Shown one piece after another: positions 138-29,039 of a stretch of 48,906 nucleotides of DNA. Origin of the DNA: Hydrogenobacter sp. (GTDB lineage Bacteria > Aquificota > Aquificia > Aquificales > Aquificaceae); assembly GCA_023255875.1 (NCBI GenBank), contig JAGDVY010000021.1:1-48906 (forward strand). Reading direction: 5' to 3'. Under the pieces are notes generated by a model, which did no database searches, was not told the DNA's origin, and saw only the letters and a program-made list of their open reading frames with translations. A program made the position numbers and the translations under genes. The stretch's first letter is position 1. Every line of letters starts with the position of its first letter.

Positions 138-157
138 AGGTTTTGAGGAGGACCTGC

Positions 158-11823: not shown

Positions 11824-12349
11824 AAAACTCATACAAGTTGGGAGACTTCTCTTTGAAGAGGGTCTTGTGGATGCAAGGGCAGGCAATCTTTCTGTAAGGA
11901 TAGGCAATAAAATACTCATAACCAGAAGGGGATCTCACTTAGGGAATCTTAAAGATCATGACTTTGTGCTTTTGGACATTGACAAAACCAGCGTTCTTGA
12001 TGATAGAGCATCTTCTGAACTTTTGGTGCATAGGGAAGTTTATATAAAAACCCAAAACCTTGCCATTGTGCACGCTCATCCTATCGCAGTGGTCAAGCTG
12101 TCTTTTAAAGCCAAAAGGATAGTGCCAAAAGATAGTGAAGGTAAAACCCTGCTAAAGAGCGTAAAGGTGATCCCCAATTTGCCTCCTGGGAGCCCAAAGT
12201 TAGCTAAGGTGGTTTCTGACATTTTATCCCAAGAAAAATTAGTAGTTGTGCGCTCTCATGGCGTTTTTTCTGCAGACATGGACCCCTTTTATGCTTACAG
12301 TCATATATCCGTACTTGAACATTCGTGTAAAATACTCCTTGATGAGTGA
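11807..12349 (+). CDS. Class II aldolase/adducin family protein
   Basis: The 180-residue protein has the fold of L-fuculose-1-phosphate aldolase: ARAGNLSVRIGNKILITRRGS, the metal ligands HAH in AIVHAHPIAV, and a later RSHGVFS that contributes the third histidine. Substrate is unknown; methylthioribulose-1-phosphate dehydratase and related pentulose-phosphate aldolases are alternatives. It overlaps hemW by 17 nt and the gcvH-like gene by 8 nt. Confidence 0.78.
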   Translation: MHYHIRKLIQVGRLLFEEGLVDARAGNLSVRIGNKILITRRGSHLGNLKDHDFVLLDIDKTSVLDDRASSELLVHREVYIKTQNLAIVHAHPIAVVKLSFKAKRIVPKDSEGKTLLKSVKVIPNLPPGSPKLAKVVSDILSQEKLVVVRSHGVFSADMDPFYAYSHISVLEHSCKILLDE

Positions 12350-12791
12350 AAGGGTTTATAAAGGATGCAGAATACCCCTTGACCTCTACTACGATATAGA
12401 GAATCAGGTTTGGTATAGATTGGAACCAGACGGTACAGTCAGAGTAGGTGCAACAGACATAGGGCAGACCAGAGCGGGCAAGATGGTAAATGTGAGGATA
12501 AAAGCGGTGGGAAAGTATGTTCAGAAAGGTAAGCCTATTGCCAGTCTTGAAAGTGGCAAATGGACAGGACCAGTCCCTGCGGTAATAGAGGGAGAGATAG
12601 TGGAAAGAAATGAAGCACTTTTTGATACACCAGAGCTCATAAACGAAGACCCCTACGGTAGAGGATGGATAGCTCGTCTAAAACCCGCAAACTTAGAAAA
12701 AGACCTTAAGGACCTTGTGACTGGCGAGGAAGCCTTCAACAAACTGAAAGAGTATATGGACAGAGAAGGTGTGGAGTGTAAAGGCTCATAG
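12342..12791 (+). CDS. GcvH-like lipoyl-carrier protein
   Basis: The 149-residue protein starts at ATG 12342. It follows the GcvH pattern (VRVGATDIGQTRAGKMVNVRI, then GKYVQKGKPIASLESGK, then EGEIVERN) with Lys73 in ESGKWTGPV as the predicted lipoylated lysine. No glycine-cleavage P or T protein is next to it. Aquificales carry several GcvH paralogues, and some act as lipoate-binding proteins (LbpA) of the sHdr sulfur-oxidation pathway. Which role applies here cannot be decided without hdr neighbours, which are absent. Confidence 0.82.
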   Translation: MSERVYKGCRIPLDLYYDIENQVWYRLEPDGTVRVGATDIGQTRAGKMVNVRIKAVGKYVQKGKPIASLESGKWTGPVPAVIEGEIVERNEALFDTPELINEDPYGRGWIARLKPANLEKDLKDLVTGEEAFNKLKEYMDREGVECKGS

Positions 12792-12853
12792 TAAAAAGCC
12801 TATATGAGTATCATCATACCTGAAGAACAAACAAACATATTATCATCTGTTCT

Positions 12854-14095
12854 ATGAAGATATTAGTACACATATGCTGTGCACCAGACGCTCTTTACTT
12901 TCTTAAAAGGCTCAGAGAAGACTATCCTAATACCACGTTGGTAGGTTTCTTTTATGATCCCAACATACACCCTTACGAAGAGTACAAGCTACGCCTAATA
13001 GAAACTGAAAGAATGTGTAAGTCTCTTGGGATAGAACTTTATGAAGGGGAATATGACGTAGAAAACTGGATGCTTTCGGTGAAAGGTTATGAAGACGAAC
13101 CCGAAAGGGGAAAAAGGTGTAAAGTGTGTTTTGATTACAGGTTAGAAAGGTCTGCCAAGTTTGCAAAGGAGATAGGAGCTACCCATTTTACTACCACCTT
13201 GCTCATGAGTCCAAAGAAAGAGTTTAACATGCTCAAAGAAAGTGGCTACATGGTTGCAAGTATGTACGGTTTAGAGTTTTTATGTCCAGATTACAGGAAA
13301 GGTGGTGGGACGCAGGAGATGTTCAGAATGTCAAGGCAGTTAGAATTCTATCATCAAGATTACTGTGGATGCATTTACGGACTTTTCAAACAGAAAAAGG
13401 AGGGTGCGGTAAAGGATCTTGTATCTTTGGGAGGTAGAAGACCAGGCAGTAAAGAGGAAGCGTCCTTTATAAAGTCCGTCAGACTGTTTGCAGAACAGAA
13501 AAACTTACCGTGTAAAGAATGGGAGTTTAGCTTCTTAAACTGGAAAGTCTTACATGGAAGGCTTCAGATAGGTGAGACAACGATCCCTTCCTTGGTATCT
13601 CCCTTTTCTAAGTCTATAAAGGGTATCCTAAAGGCAGATGTGGAAGAGATAGTGGGAAACACTGTGTACTACAACAAAGGCGGGCTGAAGGTAGTGCTGG
13701 TAGATGAACTAAAAGATGAGCCCGTGCATCAATTTTGTGGATTGACAGACCCTACCTTCAAAGTTCCCCGTGAATATAAGGAAATGCTTCTGAAAGAACG
13801 CATAAAGGCGGAGTTAACCACTGAGTTTTCATCAGATGTATCAAGGGTCCTCCTTGTGGGAAGCTTAGAGGCATCAACTTTTATAAGCGTCCCTGCAGAC
13901 ACACTTCAGGACTCAAGAGGAGTAAGTTTAGAAACTGTGGAAAAGTTTATAACCCAGAACCTTTCGGATATAGCTCAGGGGAAGTTAGCGTTAGTGGTTT
14001 GCGGAGCGGAATCTTTGGGAAAAGCTGGTAGCAACTACTTTACTCAAAGAACAGGAAAGAGAGCAGAAGAGCTTTCCTACGATTTTAGTTTGTAA
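12854..14095 (+). CDS. queH: Epoxyqueuosine reductase QueH (DUF208) with long C-terminal extension
   Basis: QueH reduces epoxyqueuosine to queuosine in tRNA. Residues 1-180 contain its whole core: HICCAPD (Cys8, Cys9), EPERGKRCKVC (Cys89, Cys92) and YRKGGGTQEMFRMSRQLEFY followed by DYCGC (Cys171, Cys173). These cysteines bind the 4Fe-4S cluster and metal. The protein continues for some 230 further residues, about twice the normal length. The extension is continuous in frame, has no motif I recognise, and has similar base composition, so it is a genuine part rather than a read-through artefact. It stands alone between the gcvH-like gene and sdhB. Confidence 0.85.
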   Translation: MKILVHICCAPDALYFLKRLREDYPNTTLVGFFYDPNIHPYEEYKLRLIETERMCKSLGIELYEGEYDVENWMLSVKGYEDEPERGKRCKVCFDYRLERSAKFAKEIGATHFTTTLLMSPKKEFNMLKESGYMVASMYGLEFLCPDYRKGGGTQEMFRMSRQLEFYHQDYCGCIYGLFKQKKEGAVKDLVSLGGRRPGSKEEASFIKSVRLFAEQKNLPCKEWEFSFLNWKVLHGRLQIGETTIPSLVSPFSKSIKGILKADVEEIVGNTVYYNKGGLKVVLVDELKDEPVHQFCGLTDPTFKVPREYKEMLLKERIKAELTTEFSSDVSRVLLVGSLEASTFISVPADTLQDSRGVSLETVEKFITQNLSDIAQGKLALVVCGAESLGKAGSNYFTQRTGKRAEELSYDFSL

Positions 14096-14108
14096 ATTTA
14101 ACTATACT

Positions 14109-14816
14109 ATGTGGGTAAAAGTAAGAATCAAACTAAACAGGGAGAACTTTAAAGATTACGTATCTTATTCTCTTGAGATCAGCAAGAACGCAACACTTCT
14201 AGATATGCTCGTGAAAATAAAGGAGGAGATGGATCAGAGCTTAGCCTTTAGAAGCATGTGTAGAGCGGGTATATGCGGAACATGTGCCATTAAGGTTAAT
14301 GGAAAGCCTGTGCTTGCATGCTCTACAAAAGTCTTTGTGTTTGGTGAGGAGATCACGGTAGAGCCCATAGACAATGTTATAGTGATAAAAGACCTTGTGG
14401 TGGACCATGAATCTCTCTATAACAGGCTTAAACTTTGGAAGGTGTGGTATGATGCCGGAGAAAAGAACCTAAAGGTAAGCGAGGAAACTATAAAAAGGAT
14501 AGAAAGAAGCCACGAGTGTATCTTATGTGGAATATGTGATAGTGTGTGTCCTGTACTTACTACAGGCACTCATTTTGGTGGTCCCCTTCTCTTGACAAGG
14601 TATTACAAGCTCCTTTTTGATCCAAGAAATGCACAGGATAGAACCCAAAACATAAAAAGCCTAAACCCAGATCTTTGCACTCACTGTATGAGCTGTTCTT
14701 TTGCGTGTCCCAAAAAGCTAATGCCCGAAGCTTTAATAAAGGAAGAGGAGAAGCTCCTCCAAGAAAAGGGAATAATAAAGAAAAGGGAGGAAGATTTTGG
14801 ATTTTTAGGATTTTGA
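14109..14816 (+). CDS. Succinate dehydrogenase/fumarate reductase iron-sulfur subunit
   Basis: The 235-residue protein has an N-terminal 2Fe-2S domain (Cys51, Cys56, Cys59, Cys71 in CRAGICGTC...C) and a C-terminal domain with two CxxCxxCxxxCP-type sets (Cys137/140/143/147 and Cys190/193/196/200). These hold the 4Fe-4S and 3Fe-4S or second 4Fe-4S clusters. A Cys at position 193 in CTHCMSC suggests a 4Fe-4S rather than a 3Fe-4S cluster. In an Aquificales background it would serve the reductive TCA cycle. The flavoprotein subunit is not adjacent. It ends just 1 nt before the convergent hsp20 stop. Confidence 0.88.
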   Translation: MWVKVRIKLNRENFKDYVSYSLEISKNATLLDMLVKIKEEMDQSLAFRSMCRAGICGTCAIKVNGKPVLACSTKVFVFGEEITVEPIDNVIVIKDLVVDHESLYNRLKLWKVWYDAGEKNLKVSEETIKRIERSHECILCGICDSVCPVLTTGTHFGGPLLLTRYYKLLFDPRNAQDRTQNIKSLNPDLCTHCMSCSFACPKKLMPEALIKEEEKLLQEKGIIKKREEDFGFLGF

Positions 14817-14817
14817 T

Positions 14818-15249
14818 TTACTTGATCTCTATCTTTTTCTCCTTTGAAACCTCAGCTTTGGGAAGTCTTATTTCCAAGACACCGTCTTTGAACTCAGCTT
14901 TCACTTCGTCAGTGTTCACCTCTGTTGGTAAGCTCAGCACCCTTTCAAACTTTCCATAAACCCTTTCTACTCTGTGAATGGTTTCCGTCTTCTCTTCACG
15001 CTCTTCCTTTTTCTCACCTCTTATGTATAGCATGTTATCCTTTATGCTTACTTCAATGTTTTCCTTCTTTACACCAGGAAGCTCCACTTTAACCACTATT
15101 TCTTTGTCCGTTTCGTACATCTCAACTGCAGGAGCAAAAGCTCTTTCCATGTCTTCTCCGGGAGAGAGCTCTTCAAGAAGTCTGTCAAACTCCCTTCTTA
15201 TTCTTTCAAGTTCTGCAAAAGGATTCCAGAGCATTAGTCCCCTTCTCAT
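14818..15249 (-). CDS. Small heat-shock protein Hsp20 (alpha-crystallin family)
   Basis: ATP-independent holdase chaperone. It is 143 residues from ATG 15249, with a GAGGTGAG Shine-Dalgarno about 6 nt upstream; a GTG at 15258 is the alternative. It contains WNPFAELERIRREFDRL, the alpha-crystallin domain (VKVELPGVKKENIEVSI, KFERVLSLP, VKAEFKDGVLEIRLPK) and a short C-terminal tail. Its roughly 100-nt leader carries a striking interleaved repeat structure, and a consensus-like promoter overlaps the end of pncA. Confidence 0.95.
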   Translation of the reverse strand: MRRGLMLWNPFAELERIRREFDRLLEELSPGEDMERAFAPAVEMYETDKEIVVKVELPGVKKENIEVSIKDNMLYIRGEKKEEREEKTETIHRVERVYGKFERVLSLPTEVNTDEVKAEFKDGVLEIRLPKAEVSKEKKIEIK

Positions 15250-15266
15250 GGCCCTCACCTCACTAT

Positions 15267-15288
15267 CTAAGCACCTGCAGGTGCTTAG
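15267..15288 (-). repeat. Perfect 22-bp palindrome in the hsp20 leader
   Basis: An 11-bp half site CTAAGCACCTG is followed directly by its exact reverse complement, with no spacer, 6 nt upstream of the hsp20 Shine-Dalgarno. The half resembles the outer part of the CIRCE operator (TTAGCACTC) but lacks its 9-nt spacer. It could be a repressor site or a hairpin that masks the ribosome-binding site. Confidence 0.7.
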
Positions 15289-15353
15289 GCTGGGGTATTT
15301 CTATACCGCCTTTTATAGCTGTCCCTTCCCCAGCAGGCGGTTTTGGGACAGCT
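15289..15353 (-). ncRNA. Candidate structured leader RNA of hsp20 (three interleaved complementary pairs)
   Basis: Read on the minus strand, three segments AGCTGTCCC, ACCGCC and GCTGGGG are followed in the same order by their exact complements GGGACAGCT, GGCGGT and CCCCAGC. Plus-strand positions are 15345-15353/15317-15325, 15336-15341/15305-15310 and 15328-15334/15289-15295. All three pairs cross one another, so the RNA can form a pseudoknot or exclusive alternative folds. The predicted transcription start lies at the first segment. No known riboswitch or thermometer class is recognised. Confidence 0.5.
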
Positions 15354-15357
15354 TACA

Positions 15358-15386
15358 TTTATAAAATTTATGTAAAAACTTTACAA
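15358..15386 (-). promoter_or_regulatory. Sigma-70-like promoter of hsp20
   Basis: Minus-strand TTGTAA (15386-15381) and TATAAA (15363-15358) are separated by 17 nt. The -35 box overlaps the pncA stop codon. Transcription should begin about 15352, giving a leader of about 100 nt. Confidence 0.55.
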
Positions 15387-15968
15387 CGTCAAGTCTCCAA
15401 AGGTTATCGCTACTGCACCTGAGTTCAGCATCTCCTCTATGGCTCTATCTGTATCCCCTACATTTACATCTACACCTTTTGTGGCATCAATAAGTAAGAA
15501 AACTTCGTAACCTAAGTTAAGACCACCTATTACCGTATTCTTTACACAGTAATCAGTAGCAACACCTCCCACAAAAATCCTTCTTATGCCTCTCTCTTTT
15601 AACAAACTGTCCAACAGAGTTCCCTGAAAACCAGAATAAGCATCAAAATCCTTACTTGTTCCTTTAGATATGATGAATTTGTTGTCCTTTGGTATTATCA
15701 GATCCTTGTGGAACTTAGCACCTTCTGTTTCCTGAACGCAGTGAGGTGGCCATATCCCACCGTATCCCTTAAAGGATATGTGATCTGGCGGATGCCAATC
15801 TCTGGTAAAGTATACGGGAAGGGATCTTGATGAAAAGGCTTCTATGTATGCATTTAGCTGTGGTACTATCTTATCCGCATCTGGTACAGGCAAGGCTCCC
15901 CAAGGCATAAAGTCATTTTGCATATCTACCACTATTAGCGCATCTTTGTTTGTTAGCCTTAGCCTCAC
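15381..15968 (-). CDS. pncA: Nicotinamidase
   Basis: Hydrolyses nicotinamide to nicotinate in NAD salvage. The 195-residue isochorismatase-like protein has the catalytic triad Asp15 (VDMQNDF), Lys102 (ISKGTSKDF) and Cys141 (ATDYCVK), and the metal site Asp57, His59 and His63 in DWHPPDH. It starts at GTG 15968 behind GGAGG. The following gene hsp20 has its own promoter inside the pncA 3' end. Confidence 0.92.
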   Translation of the reverse strand: MRLRLTNKDALIVVDMQNDFMPWGALPVPDADKIVPQLNAYIEAFSSRSLPVYFTRDWHPPDHISFKGYGGIWPPHCVQETEGAKFHKDLIIPKDNKFIISKGTSKDFDAYSGFQGTLLDSLLKERGIRRIFVGGVATDYCVKNTVIGGLNLGYEVFLLIDATKGVDVNVGDTDRAIEEMLNSGAVAITFGDLTL

Positions 15969-15981
15969 GCTTGAACCTCCT

Positions 15982-16623
15982 TCAAAGGATCACCTCTATT
16001 TCTTCTTTTAATTTAATTTCTTCTAAGCTCACAAAGCAGTTATAGGCTCTTACTTCATATCCCAAGCGAGCAAAAAGCCTTAGCTTTTGGGCAAATACTG
16101 GGTCTGTCTCTTCATTAGGAGAAAATACTTCAGCATCTTCCCTTTGAACTACAAAGACCATTTTAGGAATAAACTTTGGATAGGTGTTTATCAAGATATG
16201 AATGTGCTTTGTTCCTCTTTTTGTAGGAGCATCTGGAAACAGAGCAGTGTTATTTTTTACTAAGTTTACGGACTTAACTTCTATGATATTTCTACCTACA
16301 AGCAAGTCCAATCTGCTTCCGTTTATTCTTGGCTCGTAAATCACAGGCTGTGCTGTCAAGGTTTCTGCATAAAGTCTTGGAGCTATTTGCGAGTCAAGGC
16401 AAACTAAAAAGCCTCTCTTTGTTTCTGCTAATAGAACTTCATACTTATACTTCCCAGTGCTTTTTTCCTTCAAGTATACAACTGAGCCTTCTATTAGTAT
16501 TTCTTTTAATCTGCCTGTATTTCTGATGTAAGCTAAGGTCTCCCTGTTTTCTAATTGAACTAAGCATAAAAAACGGTTAATTCTTTTTACAAACTTAGCG
16601 GGAACCAAAGGAGGAAATCGCAT
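15982..16623 (-). CDS. sfsA: SfsA family DNA-binding/nuclease-fold protein
   Basis: The 213-residue protein starts MRFPPLVPAKFVKRINRFLCLV and contains the family's TGRLKEIL region and a PD-(D/E)XK-like core: SRLDLLVGRNIIEVKSVNL. SfsA was described as a sugar-fermentation stimulation protein; its biochemical role is unclear. Start ATG 16623 has no good Shine-Dalgarno. Instead a perfect 8-bp hairpin lies 15-34 nt upstream. It is followed by pncA after 13 nt. Confidence 0.88.
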   Translation of the reverse strand: MRFPPLVPAKFVKRINRFLCLVQLENRETLAYIRNTGRLKEILIEGSVVYLKEKSTGKYKYEVLLAETKRGFLVCLDSQIAPRLYAETLTAQPVIYEPRINGSRLDLLVGRNIIEVKSVNLVKNNTALFPDAPTKRGTKHIHILINTYPKFIPKMVFVVQREDAEVFSPNEETDPVFAQKLRLFARLGYEVRAYNCFVSLEEIKLKEEIEVIL

Positions 16624-16637
16624 TGTTTATTAGAAAG

Positions 16638-16657
16638 GCCCTACCGGGCGGTAGGGC
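16638..16657. repeat. Perfect inverted repeat (8-bp stem, 4-nt loop) upstream of sfsA
   Basis: GCCCTACC-GGGC-GGTAGGGC. No T-tract follows on either strand, so it is not a typical intrinsic terminator. It would form a stable hairpin in the sfsA leader just before the start codon. Confidence 0.6.
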
Positions 16658-16667
16658 AAACAAATTA

Positions 16668-16685
16668 GGGGAGGGAGGGGGAGGG
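16668..16685 (+). other. G-quadruplex-type tract
   Basis: Four G runs (GGGG, GGG, GGGGG, GGG) separated by single A residues fit a strict short-loop G4 pattern on the plus strand. The complementary C tract would be in the sfsA leader transcript. Confidence 0.6.
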
Positions 16686-16708
16686 AGTTTATCACTCCCA
16701 CTTTTTTT
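16683..16708 (+). terminator. Intrinsic terminator with no plus-strand gene upstream
   Basis: GGGAG (16683-16687) pairs with CTCCC (16695-16699) around a 7-nt loop, followed by AC and seven T residues. No plus-strand gene ends here. It may serve a small RNA, or be a remnant of the sequence present before the island arrived. Confidence 0.45.
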
Positions 16709-16724
16709 AACCTCTGCAATGTAT

Positions 16725-16754
16725 CTATATTATATCCCAAAAAATTTTTGTCAA
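16725..16754 (-). promoter_or_regulatory. Possible promoter of sfsA
   Basis: A perfect TTGACA (minus, 16754-16749) lies upstream of TATAAT. The spacer is only 14 nt, so the pairing may be wrong and a shifted -10 (spacer 16) is possible. It would give a leader of about 90 nt that contains the C-rich tract and two hairpins. Confidence 0.3.
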
Positions 16755-16767
16755 GAGGTTTAAGGAG

Positions 16768-16819
16768 GCTGTTTGAAAAATCCCAGAATATTGAGAAAAC
16801 TTGATTTCTTAAAACAGTC
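16768..16819 (-). mobile_element. Short MITE-like repeat, left border of the TonB/PhoD island
   Basis: About 52 bp beginning GCTGTTTGAAAAATCCCAG and ending near AAAACAGTC, with imperfect terminal inverted repeats. It is nearly identical over 42 bp, in opposite orientation, to 22361-22402 at the other end of the AT-rich island. No transposase is present. It lies about 80 bp before the truncated receptor gene. Confidence 0.6.
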
Positions 16820-16898
16820 TTCAAAAGCTCAAAAAATAGGAATACGAGCCCAAGCTTTTACTCTGACCCTTAACGATTTTTTAACACACCGTCCCTAG

Positions 16899-19007
16899 AA
16901 TAACATCAACGGAGGAGACCAACTAACTATACCTGTAGAGCGTAAAAAAGCGACACCTAAAACAGAAACAACTATAAAGGGAGATGAATTACAGATAAGG
17001 TCAGGTGCAGGAAGTGTAAACGTATTTAAAGCTATAGAATTAACTCCTTCTATAAACGTTCAAACAGATGACGCTTATGGTTTAGGTGGTGGTTCTATTA
17101 GAATAAGGGGTTTTGATAACACTCAGATTGGTTTAACTATAGATGATATGCCTCTTAACGACTCTGGTAATTATGCTCTGTACCCACACGAGTATGCTGA
17201 CGTTGAAAACTTGGAAAGTATAACTGTAGAAAGAGGAGCTGTAAGTAAAAAATCTCCCTTTTACGTTGAAGTAGGTGGAGCCATAAGAATAAGAACTAAA
17301 CCACCAAAAAATAGATTCTCAATAGAACTATTTCCCAAGTATGGAACAAACAGCTTTCAAAGATTCTTTGGTAGAATAGATACGGGAATTATAGGAAATA
17401 CTGGTTTAAAAGCTTTTGTTTCTTACTCTGGAACGTCTGCAGATAAGTGGAAAGGTCCAGGAAAATATCCTGAGCACAGAGACCACTTTACTGCAGGACT
17501 AAGCTGGAAGTATAACAGACTTTTTGCTGAATTCTACTTTGATAACAACTCACAGCTAAACTACTATTACAGAGGACTAAACTACGATCAGGCTGTAGAT
17601 TTAGATAGATACAGAAGATTTGATTATAATCCTAACCTAATAGCGGGGCACCTGCAAATGTTAATGTGAACTACTATAAATTCTATAAAAACCCTTATAA
17701 CAACCAACAGTTAAGGTCTAATATAGAGTTTAATATCACGGATGGCATAAAATTCACACTTAAACCTTACTTCTGGAAAGGTAGAGGAAGCGGTACTTCA
17801 GCTACTGTAGATAGAAACAAAATATAACTACACAGATAGACCAGGATTTATAGCGGATTTATCGTTTAGCTTTCCTTACAATTCCAACATAAACATAGGT
17901 TACTGGTATGAAAGGGCGAATCTAAAACAGTGGCAGCCGTCTTTCCTCGTGACTGTAAATAAAGATGGAACCTATAGATTATCTTTTGATAGATACAACT
18001 ATATACAGAAGACGATCACTACTACAAATTCCATCTATCTCTTTTTAGAAAATAAAAATCTTATGGATAGATTTGATTTAAATTTGGGTTTAAGATACGC
18101 AAACGTAAAGAGAGAATACACTAGCTATAGTACTAAAGGTATGCCATATTATCCAGAAGATGGTGTTTATGATGATCCTAAACTTACAAAAGATAACAAT
18201 CTATCTTACACGAAAACCTACAGAAAACTGCTACCGAACTTTGGAGTTGGTTTTAAAGTTTTAGATGGTGTTTATGGTTACTTTGCATACGCAAGAAACT
18301 TTAGAGTCCCTCAAAACAGTGCCCCAGGCTTTACTTTTTCTTTACCTAAAGGTGTTACTGCTCAGTATATAGCGGACCAGCTAAAGCCTGAAGAAGCAGA
18401 TTCTTTTGATTTAGGTATAAGATACAATAAAGGGAACTTTTATGTGGTTCCTTTGGTCTATTATGTGAACTACAAAAATAGGTTGGTAAGAGTAGCAGAC
18501 CCTACAAACCCTAACCTAACTTACCTTAGAAACGTCGGTAAAGTCGAAGCTAAAGGATTCGAGCTAGAGATTGGTGCTGTGCCTCTCAGCTCAGTGAGTG
18601 TTTATGCATCCTTCTCTTACAACACTGCAAAATTTAAGGAAGATTATATTGTCGATGGAAATAACAGAGTCTACATCAAAGACAAGGAAGTACCAGATAC
18701 TCCAAAATACATGTTTAAGGTAGGTGCAAATATCAGAATAGAATCAATAAGAACTAACATCTATCCAAGCTTACAGTACGTGGGCTCAAGGTATGGTAAC
18801 TTTACAAACACAGAAAAAATAGGCTCTTACACTATCGTAAATCTTAGCATAAATACAAGAATTTCAAGAAACTTTACTTTTTACGCAGATATTGTTAACC
18901 TCTTTGATAAAAAGTACATAGGTAGAATTAGTCCTGGCTTCCAATCTGGAACTTACTATGTGGCTGCTCCGTTTACTATATCTGCTGGTATAAAAGCGCA
19001 GTTTTAG
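16899..19007 (+). pseudogene. TonB-dependent outer-membrane receptor, 5'-truncated and twice frameshifted
   Basis: The reading frame opens after a stop at 16896 without a start codon or signal peptide. It enters the plug domain (GGGSIRIRGFDNTQIGLTIDDMPLND) and runs to TGA 17667-17669. The receptor sequence continues in another frame from about 17645 (APANVNVNYYKFY...) until about 17820, then returns to the first frame and runs to the C-terminus. It ends in a typical beta-strand (YVAAPFTISAGIKAQF), with VNLFDKKY nearby. The breaks sit at a G run (one base lost) and an A run (one base gained). Either the gene is decayed or these are homopolymer sequencing errors; the missing 5' end is independent of that. 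The ligand is unknown. It is followed by exbB after 13 nt. Confidence 0.8.
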
Positions 19008-19020
19008 GAGGTCATAAAAC

Positions 19021-19455
19021 ATGGTTTTAGAAATCGTCCACAAAACAGTTTTTGTTTTGATGTTTCTTATGTTTCTTTATGGAAACTACATAATATTTTT
19101 GAAACTCATAACTTTAAAGAAGCGTCCAAACAGCACACCAAAAGAGTTGTTTAATTTCGCTGAAAGCTTTAAAAAGGGACTCTGGTTTTTAGATTTTGGG
19201 GCTACCACAGCTCCATTGCTTGGCTTAATGGGGACCATCTTAGCTTTGATTATAGCTTTTCAGGAGCTATCTAAAAAAGGTCTATCCGGTGCTTCAGAGA
19301 TAAGTCAGGCTATAGGTTTAGCTCTTGTTGCAACTGCAGTAGGTATAGCTCTTTCTCTATGGTTTTATTTATGGTTTAAATTTTTCCAAGACAGAGTAAA
19401 TCACATAAAAGGTGAAGCTAAGATGAAAATATTGGAGGCTTATATAAATGAATAA
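19021..19455 (+). CDS. exbB: ExbB/TolQ-type proton channel subunit
   Basis: The 144-residue MotA/TolQ/ExbB protein energises TonB with ExbD. One N-terminal helix is followed by TTAPLLGLMGTILALIIAFQ and ISQAIGLALVATAVGIALSLWFYLWFKFF, the conserved pore helices. It is short for ExbB, the N-terminal region being reduced. A good AGGAGGT precedes ATG 19021. It overlaps exbD by 8 nt. Confidence 0.88.
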   Translation: MVLEIVHKTVFVLMFLMFLYGNYIIFLKLITLKKRPNSTPKELFNFAESFKKGLWFLDFGATTAPLLGLMGTILALIIAFQELSKKGLSGASEISQAIGLALVATAVGIALSLWFYLWFKFFQDRVNHIKGEAKMKILEAYINE

Positions 19456-19870
19456 AGAGTTATTACTTTTATTTATGGAGGAGGACAGTTTAGGAAAAGA
19501 AGAGATACAGATTGTTCCTATGATAGATGTTATGCTGTTTTTACTCGTATTTTTCATGCTTTATACGATTAACGTGGTTCCTGCTTTAGTTCAGAATATA
19601 AGCGTTCCAACATCTTCAACCCTTCAACCTGTAGAAAAGAAAGAGCCTATAACCATATACATAACAAGTAGAGGTGATATATACTACAACAAAGATAAGG
19701 TATCTTTGGATGATATTACTCAAAGACTATCAAGTTTACCTGATAAAAGTAATCAGAACGTGGTAATTGTGTCAGACAAAGAAGTTAAAATGCAGGCAGT
19801 TATGGATGTTATAGATGCAGTAAAAAAAGCAGGGATAAGTAAATTAGGTTTAGCCGGTGAGAAGAAATGA
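19448..19870 (+). CDS. exbD: ExbD/TolR-type subunit
   Basis: The 140-residue protein has a cytoplasmic N-terminus, one membrane helix containing the essential aspartate in IVPMIDVMLFLLVFFML, and a periplasmic domain (ITIYITSRGDIYYNKDKVSLDDITQRL). It forms the proton-driven motor with ExbB. A second ATG ten codons in is a possible start. It overlaps exbB and tonB. Confidence 0.9.
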   Translation: MNKELLLLFMEEDSLGKEEIQIVPMIDVMLFLLVFFMLYTINVVPALVQNISVPTSSTLQPVEKKEPITIYITSRGDIYYNKDKVSLDDITQRLSSLPDKSNQNVVIVSDKEVKMQAVMDVIDAVKKAGISKLGLAGEKK

Positions 19871-20667
19871 ACCTCATCTACAAAGAGGATAGGAAAAAAG
19901 CCTTTATCTTTTCGCTTCTATTCTCTGTTTTAGTTTCTATAGGTTTTTACTATATTTTTACTGTTTCTATCTATAAGCTTTCCCAATTTTCAAAGTCAGA
20001 AGAAGTTATAGAGATAGTCTTACCTTCAGAAAGTAAGTTGGAAAAACCATCTAAAGAACAGAAAATAGTAGAAAAGCAACAAAAAAAGCTTGCAGAGAAA
20101 ATTCAAAAACCCAAAATAGTCCATAAAACAATTCAAAAACCCGTAGAAGAAAAGGTTAAACCGATGGAAAAACCCCAAGAAAAACCCCAGAACCAAATAC
20201 CAACTGTTCAGCCCCTCCAAAATGAAGTATCTAAGATAGAGGATACTATTCCGACGAAAACTACAGGAACACCGCAACAGCCACCACCAAAACCTCAGGA
20301 AAACCTTTCAAAAGAAGAAAAAGAAATACAGAAGCCTAAAGTAGAAGAAAAACCAAAGCAGGTATCACAAAAAGAAGAACAAGACCAAATGAAAAAATAC
20401 TACCAAACTCTATATGCGATCATAGAAAGAAACAAATACTATCCCAGCGAGGCTAAGAGAAGAGGAGAAGAGGGAACTCCAGTAGTCAAAGTCACGATAG
20501 GAGAAGATGGTAAAATCCAAGAGATAGTTCTAATAAAAAGTAGTGGTAGTACAATTTTGGATAAAGAAGTTGTAAATCTACTCAGATCTATTGGAAAGTT
20601 TCCACCACCACCCGGCGGAAGAAGCATAACCGTAAATATAGCTGTAGAGTATAGCTTAGGAGGATAA
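19867..20667 (+). CDS. tonB: TonB energy-transducing protein
   Basis: The 266-residue protein has an N-terminal membrane anchor, a long Pro/Lys/Glu-rich periplasmic spacer (about residues 55-175: repeated EKP, QKP and PQE units) and a C-terminal TonB domain (YYPSEAKRRGEEGTPVVKVTIGEDGKIQEIVLIKSSG). It transmits proton-motive force from ExbBD to outer-membrane receptors. It overlaps exbD by 4 nt and phoD follows after 3 nt. Confidence 0.93.
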   Translation: MNLIYKEDRKKAFIFSLLFSVLVSIGFYYIFTVSIYKLSQFSKSEEVIEIVLPSESKLEKPSKEQKIVEKQQKKLAEKIQKPKIVHKTIQKPVEEKVKPMEKPQEKPQNQIPTVQPLQNEVSKIEDTIPTKTTGTPQQPPPKPQENLSKEEKEIQKPKVEEKPKQVSQKEEQDQMKKYYQTLYAIIERNKYYPSEAKRRGEEGTPVVKVTIGEDGKIQEIVLIKSSGSTILDKEVVNLLRSIGKFPPPPGGRSITVNIAVEYSLGG

Positions 20668-20670
20668 ACA

Positions 20671-22257
20671 ATGCTTACACGTAGAGAATTTATAGGTTAC
20701 GGAGTTTCTGCTCTTTTCCTTCTATCTTTAAACGAAAGACTCTTTGCATTTGATACGCCAGATGTTTTTCCTCTTGGCATTGCGAGCGGAGACCCGACGC
20801 AAAACAGTATAGTTCTTTGGACAAAATTAAACCCCAGCGTTGTAAGAAAAGGAGAAGAAAAAATAAACTTACACCTATCTAACGATCCAGAGTTTAAAAA
20901 CTATCAAACTCTACCTATAGACCTAAAATTTTTAAACCCTAGGACAAGCACATTAAAAATAACTGTTTCAGACTTAAAGCCGGGAACCCAGTATTATTAC
21001 AGGTTTGAATACAGAGGTGTCTCGTCTCTTGTAGGAAGGTTTAGAACTTTACCATTGGATAAAGTGGATTATGCAAAGATAATTTTTGTTACATGTCAAA
21101 ACTACCCAGATGGCTACTATCCAGCTTATAGACACATAGCTCAAGAAGAAGCTCTAATGGTTGTTCATCTTGGTGACCAGATTTATGAAAAAAGGTATGG
21201 TAATCCGAGAGTTCCCGGTAGAGATATCCAGTTTCCTTCTGGAAAAGATATAGCAAACACCCTTGAAGATTACATTTACCTTTACAACACTTACCTTTCT
21301 GACAAAGACTACCAACTTGCAAGAGCTTCCGCTCCTTTTGTTTATATCTGGGATGACCACGAGTATGCTAACGATTACTCCTTTGATTACTCAAAAGGTA
21401 TGTATGTTTTACCTACGCATCCAGATTGGATAAAAAACAATCCTAAACTTGTTATGGAGCTTAGAAAGTATGCTATATATGCTTGGAATGCATTTACGCC
21501 AGCGAATGTAAAAATTAATCTTTCAGACAGCAATCCTTTAAAATGGATAAAGATATACAGAGACTTTAAGATAGGAGATCTTGCACATCTCATATGCACA
21601 GATGAGAGAAGCTACAGAGACCCACAACCTTGTGATAAAAGATTTGGAAGCCTTGGTTGCGAAGATCAGTACAAAAGGAGTATGTTAGGAAAAGAGCAAA
21701 AAGAGTGGTTTTTTGAAAAACTTAAAGAGAAAGGTCAAAGATGGAAAGTTTGGGCTAACGAAGTTCAGTTTGTAGAAGGCAAAATAAACAATCTGTTTGG
21801 TTCTTTAGATGCTTGGAGTGGTTATCTTGGAGAAAAACAGGAAATAGTAGACTTTTTAGATAAAAATAAACTTTACAACACTGTAATTCTTACGGGAGAT
21901 AGACACGCAACCCTAATAGCAGAAGTAAGAAAAGACAGTAAAAATCCAGATTCAATTGTTGCCGTAGAGTATATGACTCCAGCAATATCTTCTGTAAATG
22001 CTTCAGAAATACCATTTTATAAAAGAAACTTCAATTTAGATAGCTTAGAAGAGTTTACAAAGCTTGAGCTTGAGCAAAATCCTTGGATCAAACATATAAA
22101 CCACAGAAACTGGGGATACGGAGTTTTAGAGCTAACAAAAGACTATGCGGACTGTAAGATATGGTCTGTGAACAAGTACGATCCTAACTCTGATAAGCAG
22201 TTAGACTGTCACTATAGGTATGTAGATAGTAGGAGAGAGCTTGAAAAAATAAGTTAA
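20671..22257 (+). CDS. phoD: PhoD-family alkaline phosphatase, Tat-exported
   Basis: Phosphodiesterase/monoesterase that releases phosphate outside the cytoplasm. The 528-residue protein starts MLTRREFIGYGVSALFLLSL, a twin-arginine signal, followed by the PhoD N-terminal domain (PLGIASGDPTQNSIVLWTKL) and the metal-binding core: HLGDQIYE, IWDDHEYANDY, ANEVQF and ILTGDRHA. It is the last gene of the receptor-exbBD-tonB cassette, which suggests phosphate scavenging from an organic ligand brought in by the receptor. Like its neighbours in the island it is visibly AT-richer than the flanking chromosome. Confidence 0.93.
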   Translation: MLTRREFIGYGVSALFLLSLNERLFAFDTPDVFPLGIASGDPTQNSIVLWTKLNPSVVRKGEEKINLHLSNDPEFKNYQTLPIDLKFLNPRTSTLKITVSDLKPGTQYYYRFEYRGVSSLVGRFRTLPLDKVDYAKIIFVTCQNYPDGYYPAYRHIAQEEALMVVHLGDQIYEKRYGNPRVPGRDIQFPSGKDIANTLEDYIYLYNTYLSDKDYQLARASAPFVYIWDDHEYANDYSFDYSKGMYVLPTHPDWIKNNPKLVMELRKYAIYAWNAFTPANVKINLSDSNPLKWIKIYRDFKIGDLAHLICTDERSYRDPQPCDKRFGSLGCEDQYKRSMLGKEQKEWFFEKLKEKGQRWKVWANEVQFVEGKINNLFGSLDAWSGYLGEKQEIVDFLDKNKLYNTVILTGDRHATLIAEVRKDSKNPDSIVAVEYMTPAISSVNASEIPFYKRNFNLDSLEEFTKLELEQNPWIKHINHRNWGYGVLELTKDYADCKIWSVNKYDPNSDKQLDCHYRYVDSRRELEKIS

Positions 22258-22295
22258 ATTGTAGGTCCAGAAAAGATCTTTTAAAAGGAGCTGAG

Positions 22296-22402
22296 GCTGT
22301 TTGAAAAATAGCAAAAAATCTTCCTACAATAATACCCGAAACAAGAGGAGGGCTATTTTTAGAAATCAAGTTTTGTCAATGTTCTGGGATTTTTCAAACA
22401 GC
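22296..22402 (+). mobile_element. 107-bp MITE-like element, right border of the TonB/PhoD island
   Basis: It has perfect 14-bp terminal inverted repeats, GCTGTTTGAAAAAT at 22296-22309 and its complement at 22389-22402, and nested AAAAATAGC/GCTATTTTT repeats (22304-22312/22352-22360). Its right half (22361-22402) matches the left-border element in inverse orientation with two or three mismatches. It encodes no protein. The stretch from here to cas6 (22403-22556) holds no gene, only weak AT-rich inverted repeats. Confidence 0.65.
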
Positions 22403-22556
22403 ATTAGTAGAAAGGTGAGTGCCAAAAATACCACACAGTGGGCTAAAAACCCAAACCCTTATATGCATCATCTTATTCTCTCTCAAGCTTTTTGAAGTTA
22501 ATTTTTGGAAATTTTCAGTTCCCAAAAATGTGGCATTTCTAATCTTACAAACCTTT

Positions 22557-23285
22557 TTACATACGGTGCAACTTTACCATACCCATGTCCATGGTGGTTT
22601 TTTGTCCTACTCCTGCATACTCTGCAAAGCGTGCAAGCACAGATAAGGTTTTGGCAAGTTCTGGGTCTTCTGTGGTGTAGCACACTATACCCAAAAAGCC
22701 CCTAAAGGTTATGTCGCTTCCTACTGTGTGGTTTGTGGAATGAAGTTCCAGCGCCTTTATGCCTACTTTTTTGGCTAACTCTTCCTCCAAGTTTTTTATG
22801 TTTAGTTGGTGCTTAGAAAAGCTGTTCCATCTGGTCAGTAGGTTTTTGAATATGAGCACAGGATCGGGTAAGATGTAGTCCCACCTGTAGCGCCTAAAGG
22901 AAGTGGGTTTTAGAAACTCAAGGCAGATGTTTTTTAAAGGTTTTGTGTTTAAAAGTTCTTCGTAGGTTTTTGCCTTTTCCTGTTTTATACCGTATGGTTT
23001 TATGGTTATGACCTTTGCGGACCTCAGGTATAGGTCCTTTTCCTGCGTGTAGTATTCATAAAAGATAATGGGTATAAGCTCGTCATTTAACACTCCCAAC
23101 CTTAGTTCCAAGCTTTGGCTATCTGCAGAAAGTATCCAAAGGGAAAAGGGTTTTTTCTTAAGGTCGTGTATTTTGCTTGTAATTTCTTCTGGCAAAAGTC
23201 TAAGATAAATGCCATGCACTTCAGAAGGTGTTGGGTTGCTTATGGGTTCTGAAAGCTTAAACTTTAGCCTCAGTATTGCTGGCAT
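22557..23285 (-). CDS. cas6: CRISPR pre-crRNA endoribonuclease Cas6
   Basis: RAMP protein that cuts CRISPR transcripts within repeats. The 242 residues end with the Cas6 glycine-rich loop AEYAGVGQKTTMDMGMV. The core has ferredoxin-like segments (SFRRYRWDYILPDPVLIFKNLL, then DITFRGFLGIVCY). It is the last gene of the csm operon, 1 nt after csm5. No CRISPR array is seen in the window, so it must act on arrays elsewhere. Confidence 0.88.
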   Translation of the reverse strand: MPAILRLKFKLSEPISNPTPSEVHGIYLRLLPEEITSKIHDLKKKPFSLWILSADSQSLELRLGVLNDELIPIIFYEYYTQEKDLYLRSAKVITIKPYGIKQEKAKTYEELLNTKPLKNICLEFLKPTSFRRYRWDYILPDPVLIFKNLLTRWNSFSKHQLNIKNLEEELAKKVGIKALELHSTNHTVGSDITFRGFLGIVCYTTEDPELAKTLSVLARFAEYAGVGQKTTMDMGMVKLHRM

Positions 23286-23286
23286 C

Positions 23287-24357
23287 TTACACCTTCAAAA
23301 GAGCCCATCCAAAAGTCTTGCCATCTTGCGTTATCCTTCTGGTCTTATTGACCTCATTTCTTACTTTGGATTGAGTTTGCCTAAAGACTTTCTCAAAAAG
23401 CTGTGGGTCTTCTCTCTTTACCAAAAGCATAACAGTAGTGCTCAGATAACCCTCGTGCTTTCCAAGTCTCAAGAGTATCCCATCATTAAGTCTTTTCTTT
23501 ATGTTTTCCAAATGCAGAACCGTTTGGTGTTTTCCCTTTTCTTTGAAAAACCTTATTTCCTCATCTAATAAATCTCCGTAAAACTTCTGTGAAAACTCTT
23601 TTAGCTTTTTGTAGAAGTTCTCAGGCTTTATGTAATCAAGAAACCTGTAGCTCCCAAACTTACTAAAGTGAGGCAGTATTTTTTGGTCTATATACTCCCT
23701 GAAATTCACTACCGTGCCCTCTTTTAGAGCTTCGCAAGGATAAATTTTCTCATTTGAGCCTACAAGCTCTGGCACTTCTACCTGTAGATGCCTTGGGTCT
23801 ATGGGTTCGCTATCAGAAACCACAAAGGCTTTAAAAAGGTCTTGCTGAGCGTTTCTTTTTTGTGCGTTCCTTGGATAGAAAACATTTTTCTCTAATATTT
23901 CTTCTGCATCCTTTATGTGTCCTTTCTGTAAAACTTCTATAAGCTCCTTCCTTATCTCTTTATTTTCCATCAACACACCAACCAAAAAGAGATGCCTGAT
24001 AGCTCCCTTTATCTCGCTACCGGGTATGTAGGGCTTATATACGCTCTTAATAAAGCTCTCTATCTGCAAGCTTTGGAGCTTTCCGTTAATTCTTACCGTA
24101 TATACAGGCTCTATCTTGTTCTTCAGATGCGGATAATCTTTAAACAGGCTCTCAAGAAAGGAGCTTCCTGCGGTAGATTGGGTCTTTATTGAAATAAGGA
24201 TGTTCTCTCTTAGATTTCTTGGTTCTCTTTCAACGACTTGAATAACTCTGTCAAAGAAATAGACTTTTAGATAAGGTCCCTCTTTTACAAAGTCAAAGCC
24301 TGTTAATCTCTCTCCATCACCTATATGCACTGGGGACAAAAGCTCAAGCTGTGCCAT
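23287..24357 (-). CDS. csm5: Type III-A effector subunit Csm5
   Basis: RAMP-family subunit that caps the 3' end of the crRNA in the Csm complex. The 356-residue protein starts MAQLELLSPVHIGDGERL and contains the RAMP signature YIPGSEIKGAIRHLFL near residue 120. It ends in GWALLKV. Its start overlaps csm4 by 14 nt. Confidence 0.85.
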   Translation of the reverse strand: MAQLELLSPVHIGDGERLTGFDFVKEGPYLKVYFFDRVIQVVEREPRNLRENILISIKTQSTAGSSFLESLFKDYPHLKNKIEPVYTVRINGKLQSLQIESFIKSVYKPYIPGSEIKGAIRHLFLVGVLMENKEIRKELIEVLQKGHIKDAEEILEKNVFYPRNAQKRNAQQDLFKAFVVSDSEPIDPRHLQVEVPELVGSNEKIYPCEALKEGTVVNFREYIDQKILPHFSKFGSYRFLDYIKPENFYKKLKEFSQKFYGDLLDEEIRFFKEKGKHQTVLHLENIKKRLNDGILLRLGKHEGYLSTTVMLLVKREDPQLFEKVFRQTQSKVRNEVNKTRRITQDGKTFGWALLKV

Positions 24358-25288
24358 TGCCTTCCCTCACAAAAAGTCCAAAGGCAAAGCCATACTGGTA
24401 TATGGTCCTTTGGTTATCCTGTAGCGCTACCTTTAAAGAGCCATAATAATCCTTTCTCTGTTTTAAGTGCATCACACTACCCGCACTCAGGTAAAGCATT
24501 CTCTTTTTCCACAAAAACCTTGTCATTCTCTCATAGTAGTTCTCTACCGCTCCAGTATAAACAAAAGTGTCATAAAGACTGCGATCAAGGTCAAAGTCAG
24601 GATCGTAAAAGCTTTCGGAAATAAGCACCATCTTATCGCTTTGAGGCTGAAGGTAGTCTTTTATCCAGTGTTCCTTTAGCTCTTTTGCTTCTACCTCAAA
24701 GTGTCCAAAGCCTGTGCTTTTATTCTTTCCGATGGGAACAAACCTAAGAGCGGACAAAACAGGCTCTTTGTAGGATGTATCAAAGAACCTTATAAAAACC
24801 TTAAAGGTATTAACATGATAAGCCTCTTCTGTGTAGTACTCTCCTCCTGCTGTGGTGTTTGTGATCCTGTTTATGCTTGCATGAGGTATGAGCAGTTTTT
24901 TTATGGGCACGCTTTGCGTTTTTGTGATCTGTATATCTGTAAGTGTTTTTATTCTGCCTTCCAAAAATCCTCTAAAGGTCTCCTCATCAACCAAGGACGC
25001 TTTTTTTAACTTCTTGAGCTTAGAGTAATTCTCTTTTGTTCCTTCGCAATAATCTTTACCTCCCAACTTCATCTGTGGCTTAGGAAAGTATAGCGTGCCT
25101 CCTACCTCGTACACAGGAGAAGATACCAAAAAGGGTGGCTTACCCTGACTAAACTCAGAGAGCATGTCCAAAAGCTTTTCTTCCGAATATAGATACTTTA
25201 TACCCCAGCAGATAGCCCCAAACAGAGTAAAAGACCTTATAGGACTGCCCACAAGACCCTTAGGCTTAAAGGTAACCTCAACTAGCAT
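24344..25288 (-). CDS. csm4: Type III-A effector subunit Csm4
   Basis: RAMP protein that binds the crRNA 5' handle and contacts Cas10. It is 314 residues from ATG 25288 (MLVEVTFKPKG), which has AGGAAAG upstream; the longer open frame to 25315 would overlap csm3 by 38 nt. It contains GSPIRSFTLFGAICWG and a glycine loop NKSTGFGHFEVEAK. It overlaps csm3 by 11 nt. Confidence 0.86.
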   Translation of the reverse strand: MLVEVTFKPKGLVGSPIRSFTLFGAICWGIKYLYSEEKLLDMLSEFSQGKPPFLVSSPVYEVGGTLYFPKPQMKLGGKDYCEGTKENYSKLKKLKKASLVDEETFRGFLEGRIKTLTDIQITKTQSVPIKKLLIPHASINRITNTTAGGEYYTEEAYHVNTFKVFIRFFDTSYKEPVLSALRFVPIGKNKSTGFGHFEVEAKELKEHWIKDYLQPQSDKMVLISESFYDPDFDLDRSLYDTFVYTGAVENYYERMTRFLWKKRMLYLSAGSVMHLKQRKDYYGSLKVALQDNQRTIYQYGFAFGLFVREGNGTA

Positions 25289-26135
25289 TTTTAGACTTTC
25301 CTGTGATTTCCTCAAGCTTTTTTATGATTTCTTGGTCTTTTATTTCTGCAAGAGAGCCAAACTTTCCTATCTCGTTCTCCTGACCTTTTCCAAGGTAGTA
25401 TTCCTTTGGTCTATACACCAGCTTTATGTTTTCAAACTTGACCCTTCCAGAACCCCTTGAGCCATAGCCTCCAAGGTAGCTGTCTTCCAATGCCCTCATG
25501 CCTGCAAACACAAGACTTAAGCGTTCCTCATCCCCCTCTTTATACATATCAAAAACCATCTTACCTTCAAAGATGGCACCAGCGGGCACACGCTCCACTT
25601 TACGTGGGTTTGCCCTTGATGTGATCCTGTTTATCTGGTTTTCTGTCTTTACCTCAGTCAGCAAGCCTTGGGTGATCTCCTGCAAGACTTCTAAGCTCTC
25701 TTTTGTCAGGTAGGCATCAAAAACCTTGAGCCTTGGCGGTCCAGGAAGCTCTTTTGGGTTTTCTTTTGCTATATTTTCTACGGTCTTTTGATCTCCTGTA
25801 CCAAAGACTATACACACATTACATCTTCCACAATCGCAGGGTTTGCCAGCGTTATTTATGTCGTTGGAATATTTAGAAAGCATTTGATCTACTCTATTCA
25901 TTATCCACTCAAGAGAGCTTCTCATCTTGCCCTTTATGGAAGAACCGGGTATGTAGGGTGTGCCTTCTGGCATGTCCGTGCCATCTTGGTAAAACTTGGG
26001 TATGGGTGCAGTTGTCTTTATCACTGGGTTGTCAAGACCACCTATCTCAAAATTTTCCTTAGAGCCACCCACTCTTAAGCCCGTAAGAGCTTTCAGGTGA
26101 TAGGTGATGATCACAGACCCCCTATAACTAAACAT
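25278..26135 (-). CDS. csm3: Type III-A backbone subunit Csm3 (target RNA nuclease)
   Basis: Repeated backbone subunit that cleaves target RNA every six nucleotides. The 285-residue protein has LRVGGSKENFEIGGLDNPVIK, in which Asp35 corresponds to the catalytic aspartate (Asp33 of Streptococcus thermophilus Csm3). It also has YIPGSSIKGKMRSSLEW, and a CDCGRCNVCIVFGT zinc-binding loop. It is longer than typical Csm3 by some 60 residues. Target RNA cutting is expected to be intact. Confidence 0.92.
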   Translation of the reverse strand: MFSYRGSVIITYHLKALTGLRVGGSKENFEIGGLDNPVIKTTAPIPKFYQDGTDMPEGTPYIPGSSIKGKMRSSLEWIMNRVDQMLSKYSNDINNAGKPCDCGRCNVCIVFGTGDQKTVENIAKENPKELPGPPRLKVFDAYLTKESLEVLQEITQGLLTEVKTENQINRITSRANPRKVERVPAGAIFEGKMVFDMYKEGDEERLSLVFAGMRALEDSYLGGYGSRGSGRVKFENIKLVYRPKEYYLGKGQENEIGKFGSLAEIKDQEIIKKLEEITGKSKNAS

Positions 26136-26137
26136 GT

Positions 26138-26599
26138 TTAGCCTCCTCTTTCCTTTTTAGAAGTTTTTGAATAAGCAACTATAGACATCATAAAGTCGTG
26201 GGCTTTCTCTAAGCTTTTCATAGCTCTCTCTGTAGCGTTAGATATGAGATCGTTATCTATTTTGTCAAGTATAGTATGAACTAAATCTTTAAATTCCTTT
26301 TTTATTACTCCTCTGTTAGCTTGATACTCAACTATTGCGTAAAGCCTGTAAAGTTCTGGCTTTATTTCATATAGATTTTCTACTTTCTTGGCTTTATTGT
26401 AAAGAGATTTGAGCTCGTGGTATATACGCCTAAGCTGTACTACGGTCATATCAAGGGCTTCTAAACATTCAGCGAGTCTTTTTCCATAGCCATCTCTTGG
26501 GTGAAAGATTTTTCTATCATCTATCTTGCTAAGGTCTGTTCTTCTTAACTCTTCATTTACTTCCTTTATTTTTTGTCTTGCTTCATCTTGCTTACACAT
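26138..26599 (-). CDS. csm2: Type III-A small subunit Csm2
   Basis: All-helical 153-residue subunit of the Csm filament. The segment LDMTVVQLRRIYHELKSLYNKA matches the conserved LT.xQLR.fy motif of Csm2, and the tail carries ERAMKSLEKAHDFMMSIVAY. It starts at ATG 26599 behind GGAGG, 2 nt after cas10. Confidence 0.85.
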   Translation of the reverse strand: MCKQDEARQKIKEVNEELRRTDLSKIDDRKIFHPRDGYGKRLAECLEALDMTVVQLRRIYHELKSLYNKAKKVENLYEIKPELYRLYAIVEYQANRGVIKKEFKDLVHTILDKIDNDLISNATERAMKSLEKAHDFMMSIVAYSKTSKKERGG

Positions 26600-26601
26600 A
26601 T

Positions 26602-29028: not shown

Positions 29029-29039
29029 CACTCTCTATA

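Follow-up and report, generated by a model that had tools for sequence, protein, structure and literature searches.

The 48,906-nucleotide contig JAGDVY010000021.1 of Hydrogenobacter sp. (assembly GCA_023255875.1), referred to below as the window, carries an operon for a TonB-dependent receptor, ExbB, ExbD, TonB and a PhoD-like phosphatase that was imported into its Aquificaceae lineage from a Sulfurihydrogenibium-like (Hydrogenothermaceae) donor. This import is strongly supported by sequence identities, by trees that contrast with that of a core gene, by codon usage and by the absence of the operon from two of the four other genomes of the genus that we compared. The receptor gene has become a pseudogene, and both borders of the foreign block coincide with breaks of synteny and with ends of one family of DDE insertion sequences (IS). 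An earlier note on this DNA, made from the letters alone, had proposed a block from a lower-GC, perhaps Hydrogenothermaceae-like, donor that was carried or rearranged through inverted repeats resembling miniature inverted-repeat transposable elements (MITEs). The proposal is partly supported: the island and its donor were guessed correctly, while the repeats proved to be ends of an IS that lie at the junctions and are no more than a putative vehicle.

Origin of the operon

The genome to which the window belongs (1.25 Mb, 42 contigs) was compared with four others of the same genus (G025, G026 [Hydrogenobacter sp. RSWP5], G027 and G028), and class-wide protein searches covered 136 genomes. PhoD relatives (E <= 1e-20) were found in 26 of these 136, the best being that of Sulfurihydrogenibium sp. 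ARK-13 (93% identity), followed by proteins at 56 to 58%. Within the genus, PhoD was present in RSWP5 (57%) and G027, with no match in G025 and G028. The core gene product UvrB, encoded in the same window, gave the reverse order, with 97% identity to G025, 91% to RSWP5, 86 to 87% to G027 and G028 and only 65% to ARK-13. At the DNA level, the ARK-13 operon, found on contig PNIU01000080.1 (C46; 3,352 bp), is 89.0% identical to the window over 3,295 bp, and the likeness stops at the end of phoD. The trees of PhoD (24 rows) and ExbD (13 rows) both pair the genome of the window with ARK-13 at 100/100, whereas that of UvrB (14 rows; 14 of the 15 genomes searched gave a match) places ARK-13 with G099 and the genome of the window with G025.

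Composition agrees with these results. The enclosed DNA has 33 to 37% GC in 1-kb windows, against mostly 38 to 47% outside, and GC at third codon positions (GC3) is 0.285 to 0.310 in the cassette open reading frames (ORFs), compared with 0.41 ± 0.045 in other ORFs of the genome (n = 186) and 0.27 ± 0.03 in those of ARK-13 (n = 106). On a codon-usage score in which values above 0 are ARK-13-like, 14 of 216 ORFs were positive, 7 of them inside the two brackets of IS ends described here (the operon and a smaller one, see below), and 6 of the 7 ORFs that exceeded 0.035 lay in these brackets; the 216 ORFs come from stretches picked around IS ends, and the counts are not a genome-wide rate. The other ARK-13 contigs that we read have 33 to 37% GC, and the contig with the operon fits them in GC and codon usage. 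Both the lower GC of the block and the kinship of its donor had thus been anticipated correctly in the earlier note, and the composition scan and phylogeny that it had suggested as checks separate the cassette from its flanks and give a non-vertical history relative to UvrB. Composition alone would, however, over-extend the island, because sfsA (15982 to 16623, minus strand) also has a low GC3 (0.318), although its DNA is still part of the flank conserved in the sister genomes. An ORF at the end of another contig (locus L201, C39, 14022 to 14632) had an ARK-13-like codon score of 0.049, with unread bases near its start, and is possibly another foreign gene. Mobile carriers were considered as sources and rejected: a phage collection gave no match to the block DNA, and the matches of PhoD among plasmids (107 records) were all below 60% identity.

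The operon is a recurrent traveller, having entered three genomes of this genus from three different sources: their PhoD copies fall in three different clades, that of RSWP5 within the Thermocrinis (g8) clade and that of G027 together with G045, a genome of another genus (g6). In RSWP5 (locus L051, 4086 to 9559), DNA identity of 92 to 93% to Thermocrinis extends over 5.5 kb and ends at the operon borders. The same five genes are found in the same order at this locus and at L052 and L053, and the order exbB-exbD-tonB-phoD recurs at L050 and other loci.

Gene content and decay

The imported operon is decaying. Its first gene (16911 to 19007, all genes of the operon being on the plus strand) is a TonB-dependent receptor pseudogene that has lost its start and signal peptide on the side of the IS end. 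Compared with the intact receptor of RSWP5, the first 29 residues (the signal peptide) are gone, an in-frame stop stands just before the conserved part, and two compensating frameshifts lie around 17640 to 17830. Downstream, exbB (MotA/TolQ/ExbB; 19021 to 19455), exbD (19448 to 19870), tonB (19867 to 20667) and the phoD-like phosphatase gene (20671 to 22257) are all open; the first three products are 91, 88 and 80% identical to those of ARK-13. The domains of the operon (PF09423, PF01618, PF02472, PF03544 and PF00593) all scored above the Pfam cut-offs, and judging by these families, it probably encodes a system for scavenging phosphate esters.

Insertion-sequence ends and a MITE at the borders

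The operon is bracketed by the top inverted pair of the window (16768 to 16822 and 22348 to 22402), whose arms are 55 nt long, 89% identical and 5,525 nt apart. The inverted, nearly identical repeats of the earlier note are therefore real and correctly located, although the arm is longer than the 42 bp or so that it gave, the outer conserved part beginning at 16765 to 16767. As it had described, the right copy is part of a 107-bp element with 14-bp perfect terminal repeats (22296 to 22402, plus strand), which starts with GCTGTTTGAAAAAT and closes with the perfect reverse complement. Being short, bounded by terminal inverted repeats and without coding capacity, this element is a complete MITE, with its left end at 22296 and its right end at 22402. 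No target site duplication was found around it, since its flanks differ. It has relatives in the same genome at C18:115872-115985 (94%) and C18:134174-134267 (82%), besides more partial copies. The left copy is no MITE; it is a single worn right end (RE) of a DDE IS (16767 to 16851, minus strand; outer end at 16767) of about 85 bp, in which positions 16768 to 16851 match the C-terminal 28 residues of a related transposase (68%, E = 2.9e-7).

These arms are not chance resemblances, because GGCTGTTTGAAAAAT has 36 matches in the genome with up to two mismatches, whereas the reversed control pattern has 5. About 30 ends of the IS lie in it, of two types, the left end (LE), which contains GAAAAATAGCAAA, and the RE, which contains GAAAAATCCCAGA. 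The RE represents the 3' end of the transposase coding sequence: in G025, a remnant of 138 codons that scores for DDE_Tnp_1 runs straight to it, which indicates that the MITE derives from a coding IS. Relatives of this remnant occur in 34 of the 136 class genomes, among them ORFs of 321 and 337 amino acids that match DDE_Tnp_1 (PF01609) above the cut-off. The search for further copies and a matching transposase that the earlier note had suggested gave copies in abundance, but the G025 query recovered only eight transposase remnants in the genome of the window, the left copy being one of them.

Twelve brackets (11 in the genome of the window, including the block itself, and one in G025) showed no shared scheme of duplication; the only bracket with a duplication, seen by eye, is C42:34915-35065, with TAGAATTCT on both sides. 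The distantly related IS of genome G122 has exact flanking repeats of 9 to 12 bp at 12 of its 20 copies. That most MITEs here lack matching flanks, though the G122 copies often have them, is consistent with past recombination between copies.

Junctions with the flanking chromosome

Both synteny breaks relative to the sister genome fall at IS ends. On the left, positions 9013 to 16755 of the window align with G025 (89.4%) and 12803 to 16755 with RSWP5 (85.3%), and both alignments stop 12 bp from the IS end. The sfsA promoter region (TTGACA ... TAATAT; 16710 to 16755, minus strand) is conserved without the IS end in these two genomes, where a relA/spoT-like gene (699 amino acids, named by eye) follows beside sfsA; the relA of the genome of the window lies on a separate contig, C39. 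On the right, positions 22427 to 22530 and 22536 to 29067 align with contig C4 of G025, in which a CRISPR array follows (L200, 10800 to 11436). The window keeps at this place a single degenerate CRISPR repeat (22429 to 22450, plus strand), left of cas6 (22557 to 23285, minus strand), which is followed by RAMP and Cas10/Csm1 genes. This indicates loss or separation of the array at the formation of the junction. Two loci found on different contigs of G025, one upstream of sfsA and the other at the array beside cas6, are thus brought together by the block, which has IS ends at both edges.

Two observations concern comparable sites. In G028, a similar yet different end, GAGCCTGTTAAAAAAATCC, stands at the same place upstream of sfsA (L188, about 8322); a related IS may have inserted there independently, into the same target. 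A thrC-like gene (identified by eye) comes directly after hisS in G025 (L186, 14203) and behind a MITE in the genome of the window; this MITE (L048, C16, contig positions 5643 to 5841) has TTGAC in both flanks and marks another breakpoint. Apart from these, the left end of the window (143 to 1597) encodes a protein with a SAVED domain (PF18145), a sensor domain of the defence type.

A second foreign gene between IS ends

A gene for a TIGR04219 outer-membrane protein (OMP) lies between an LE and a short RE at C30:334-1215. Relatives of this gene were found in 96 of the 136 class genomes, that of ARK-13 being the nearest by far (81%; next, 62%), with no match in the four other genomes of the genus. 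A tree built from 18 of the rows paired the genome of the window with ARK-13 at 100/99. The DNA of C30:414-1198 is 86.6% identical to ARK-13, and the likeness is confined inside the ends and stops about 3 bp from one of them. In ARK-13, the OMP gene lies on a 14-kb contig beside an sdhA-like gene (by eye). This bracket, for which no target duplication was found, comes directly after one of two ORF fragments next to IS ends that look TnpB-like by eye (L043 on C30, 2 to 343, and L033 on C19, 2982 to 3206); a Pfam scan of the C30 piece gave no match.

Formation of the junctions

Taken as one combined reading, we consider it likely that the complete receptor-exbB-exbD-tonB-phoD operon arrived from a Sulfurihydrogenibium-like bacterium and then decayed, and that it came to sit at the junction of two formerly separate chromosomal places whose edges are ends of one DDE IS family. 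The IS copies and MITEs of the recipient would most likely have served as joints. The foreign DNA could have been moved or fused by their ends, with a transposase acting in trans, or put in place by recombination among scattered IS copies. We infer that the ends caused the joining, as we do the order of events and the route of uptake. Of the rearrangement through repeats that the earlier note had envisaged, what stands is that both synteny breaks lie at the ends and that a second bracket holds DNA of the same donor lineage.

Several observations weigh against this reading. No related end (up to three mismatches) was found at the operon locus of RSWP5, which acquired the same operon, so the IS is not needed for its transfer. 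No common target duplication was found in the outer flanks of the block, and the outer ends are both REs, where a normal pair would be LE and RE. Neither the G025 remnant nor a PF01609 scan (0 matches) detected an intact transposase in the genome of the window, although an intact copy may be absent from the assembly only, because several contigs end at IS copies (C4, C19 and C26). The ARK-13 copy of the operon is a 3.35-kb contig of a metagenome-assembled genome, even if it fits that genome in GC and codon usage, and in the stretches that we read, the majority of the remaining IS ends do not enclose any gene of foreign appearance. Together, the transfer to RSWP5, the RE/RE ends and the lack of a common duplication and of an intact transposase mean that carriage by the repeats, as the earlier note had it, is not borne out.

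Some of these points fit other histories better. The operon might have been integrated by another route, e.g., natural uptake with illegitimate or homologous recombination, the IS end and the MITE having landed later in its AT-rich borders, so that the bracket would be a coincidence. The family is numerous and prefers promoter-proximal intergenic sites, the complete MITE on the right could have inserted independently, and the block shares no target duplication, just as the RSWP5 operon needed no such ends; but a coincidence accounts poorly for block edges and synteny breaks that both fall at IS ends, and for a second gene from the same donor, bracketed alike, whose likeness ends about 3 bp from one end. 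We regard this course as possible but clearly less probable than the use of resident IS copies as joints. It is unlikely that the block is a true mobile unit (a MITE-bounded composite or a mobile insertion cassette) transposed end to end with a transposase in trans. Inverted IS ends do flank passenger genes between 16767 and 22403 with no transposase inside, the second bracket of this kind holds the OMP gene, and PMC6382973 offers a precedent in a composite transposon that is associated with a MITE and has cargo of another genus. On the other hand, neither bracket has a target duplication, no empty site was found for the block, the outer ends are both REs, no second copy of the unit was seen, and the start of the receptor is cut off beside the left end. 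Vertical inheritance with loss in relatives, the low GC reflecting relaxed selection, is rejected as extremely improbable: PhoD is present in 26 of the 136 class genomes, as such loss would allow, but the identities contradict it, the UvrB tree disagrees with those of PhoD and ExbD at full support, and the three copies of the genus stand in three clades.

The window is a well-delimited example of genes passing from one Aquificota family to another: the donor lineage can be named, the decay is visible, and comparison with sister genomes resolves both junctions.

Target preference near promoters

IS ends about 10 bp upstream of TTGAC, often with a whole sigma70-like promoter, were seen in the window (16710 to 16767) and at loci L001 to L049, L065, L068 to L090, L151 and L222 to L241. 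The left copy begins 12 bp upstream of the TTGACA (−35) of the sfsA promoter, which predates the IS end, since G025 and RSWP5 have this promoter without the IS. With offsets counted outward from the end, TTGAC was found at offset 7 to 13 at 10 of 22 REs and 3 of 11 LEs in the genome of the window (13 of 33 in total), at 6 of 13 REs (all at offset 10) and none of 5 LEs in G025, at the sole RE of ARK-13 and at 7 of 40 ends (20 copies) of the related IS in G122. Ends with less than 45 bases of flank were left out of this tally; so were an RE-like false match (L013 +, also with TTGAC nearby), the single end of G031 (without TTGAC) and, among 12 unclassified ends, all but L020 + and L028 +, which were assigned by hand to RE and LE, respectively. 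At random intergenic points, a null that contains the IS sites themselves, the rate was 0.7% (genome of the window), 0.5% (G025) and 0.5% (G122), and the excess gave binomial p values of 3e-20, 2e-11 (REs of G025) and 1e-9, which are approximate because the two ends of an insertion depend on each other. The bias of RE over LE was not significant (16/35 versus 3/16, p = 0.12). A −10-like hexamer at a spacing of 16 to 18 accompanied 15 of the 20 TTGAC cases of the genome of the window, G025 and ARK-13, compared with 8.2 expected from shuffles.

We tentatively suggest, as a somewhat doubtful idea, that this IS family of the Aquificota targets the −35 motif, inserting about 10 bp upstream of TTGAC and leaving the promoter intact, and that its ends may then join genes of other families (here the TonB/PhoD operon and the OMP gene) to native promoters. 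Selection for harmless sites could favour positions upstream of promoters, yet on its own it would not hold the distance at about 10 bp. If true, an IS target set by the position of the −35 box would make it possible to test directly whether transposases can read the promoter sequence or bound RNA polymerase so as to insert safely, as some yeast elements do, and this side result, if it holds, outweighs the transfer case. Among titles and the beginnings of abstracts in the open-licence PMC text, we recognised no IS described as inserting at a fixed spacing relative to the −35 box and no paper on MITEs of Aquificae.

Comparison with known systems

The IS family resembles the IS5/IS4 superfamily (PF01609; nearest NCBIfam model NF033579, IS5_2) in its DDE_Tnp_1 domain, its inverted ends and the 9-to-12-bp duplications of the G122 copies. 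The two related transposases, however, scored 97.4 and 105.3 bits against NF033579, under the cut-off of 140 bits, and do not qualify as IS5 by that model, and typical IS5 target duplications are shorter than 9 to 12 bp.

Mobile insertion cassettes carry passenger genes between IS-like inverted ends, without a transposase, and C30:334-1215 resembles them in each of these respects. Any mobility would be putative here, there is no duplication, and the window block is larger and asymmetrical.

Tn6645 / MITEAba12 (PMC6382973) is a MITE-associated composite transposon with cargo of another genus. It shares with the window block a short, transposase-less element with IS ends and cargo of other origin, while in the window the left end is the remnant of a truncated IS, with no flanking duplication of the block.

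The closest likeness in gene order is to the PhoD-TonB-ExbBD operons of other Aquificota (Hydrogenobacter sp. RSWP5, Thermocrinis spp. and Sulfurihydrogenibium spp.), compared with which the window copy has a broken receptor, belongs to a different clade and is joined to IS ends.

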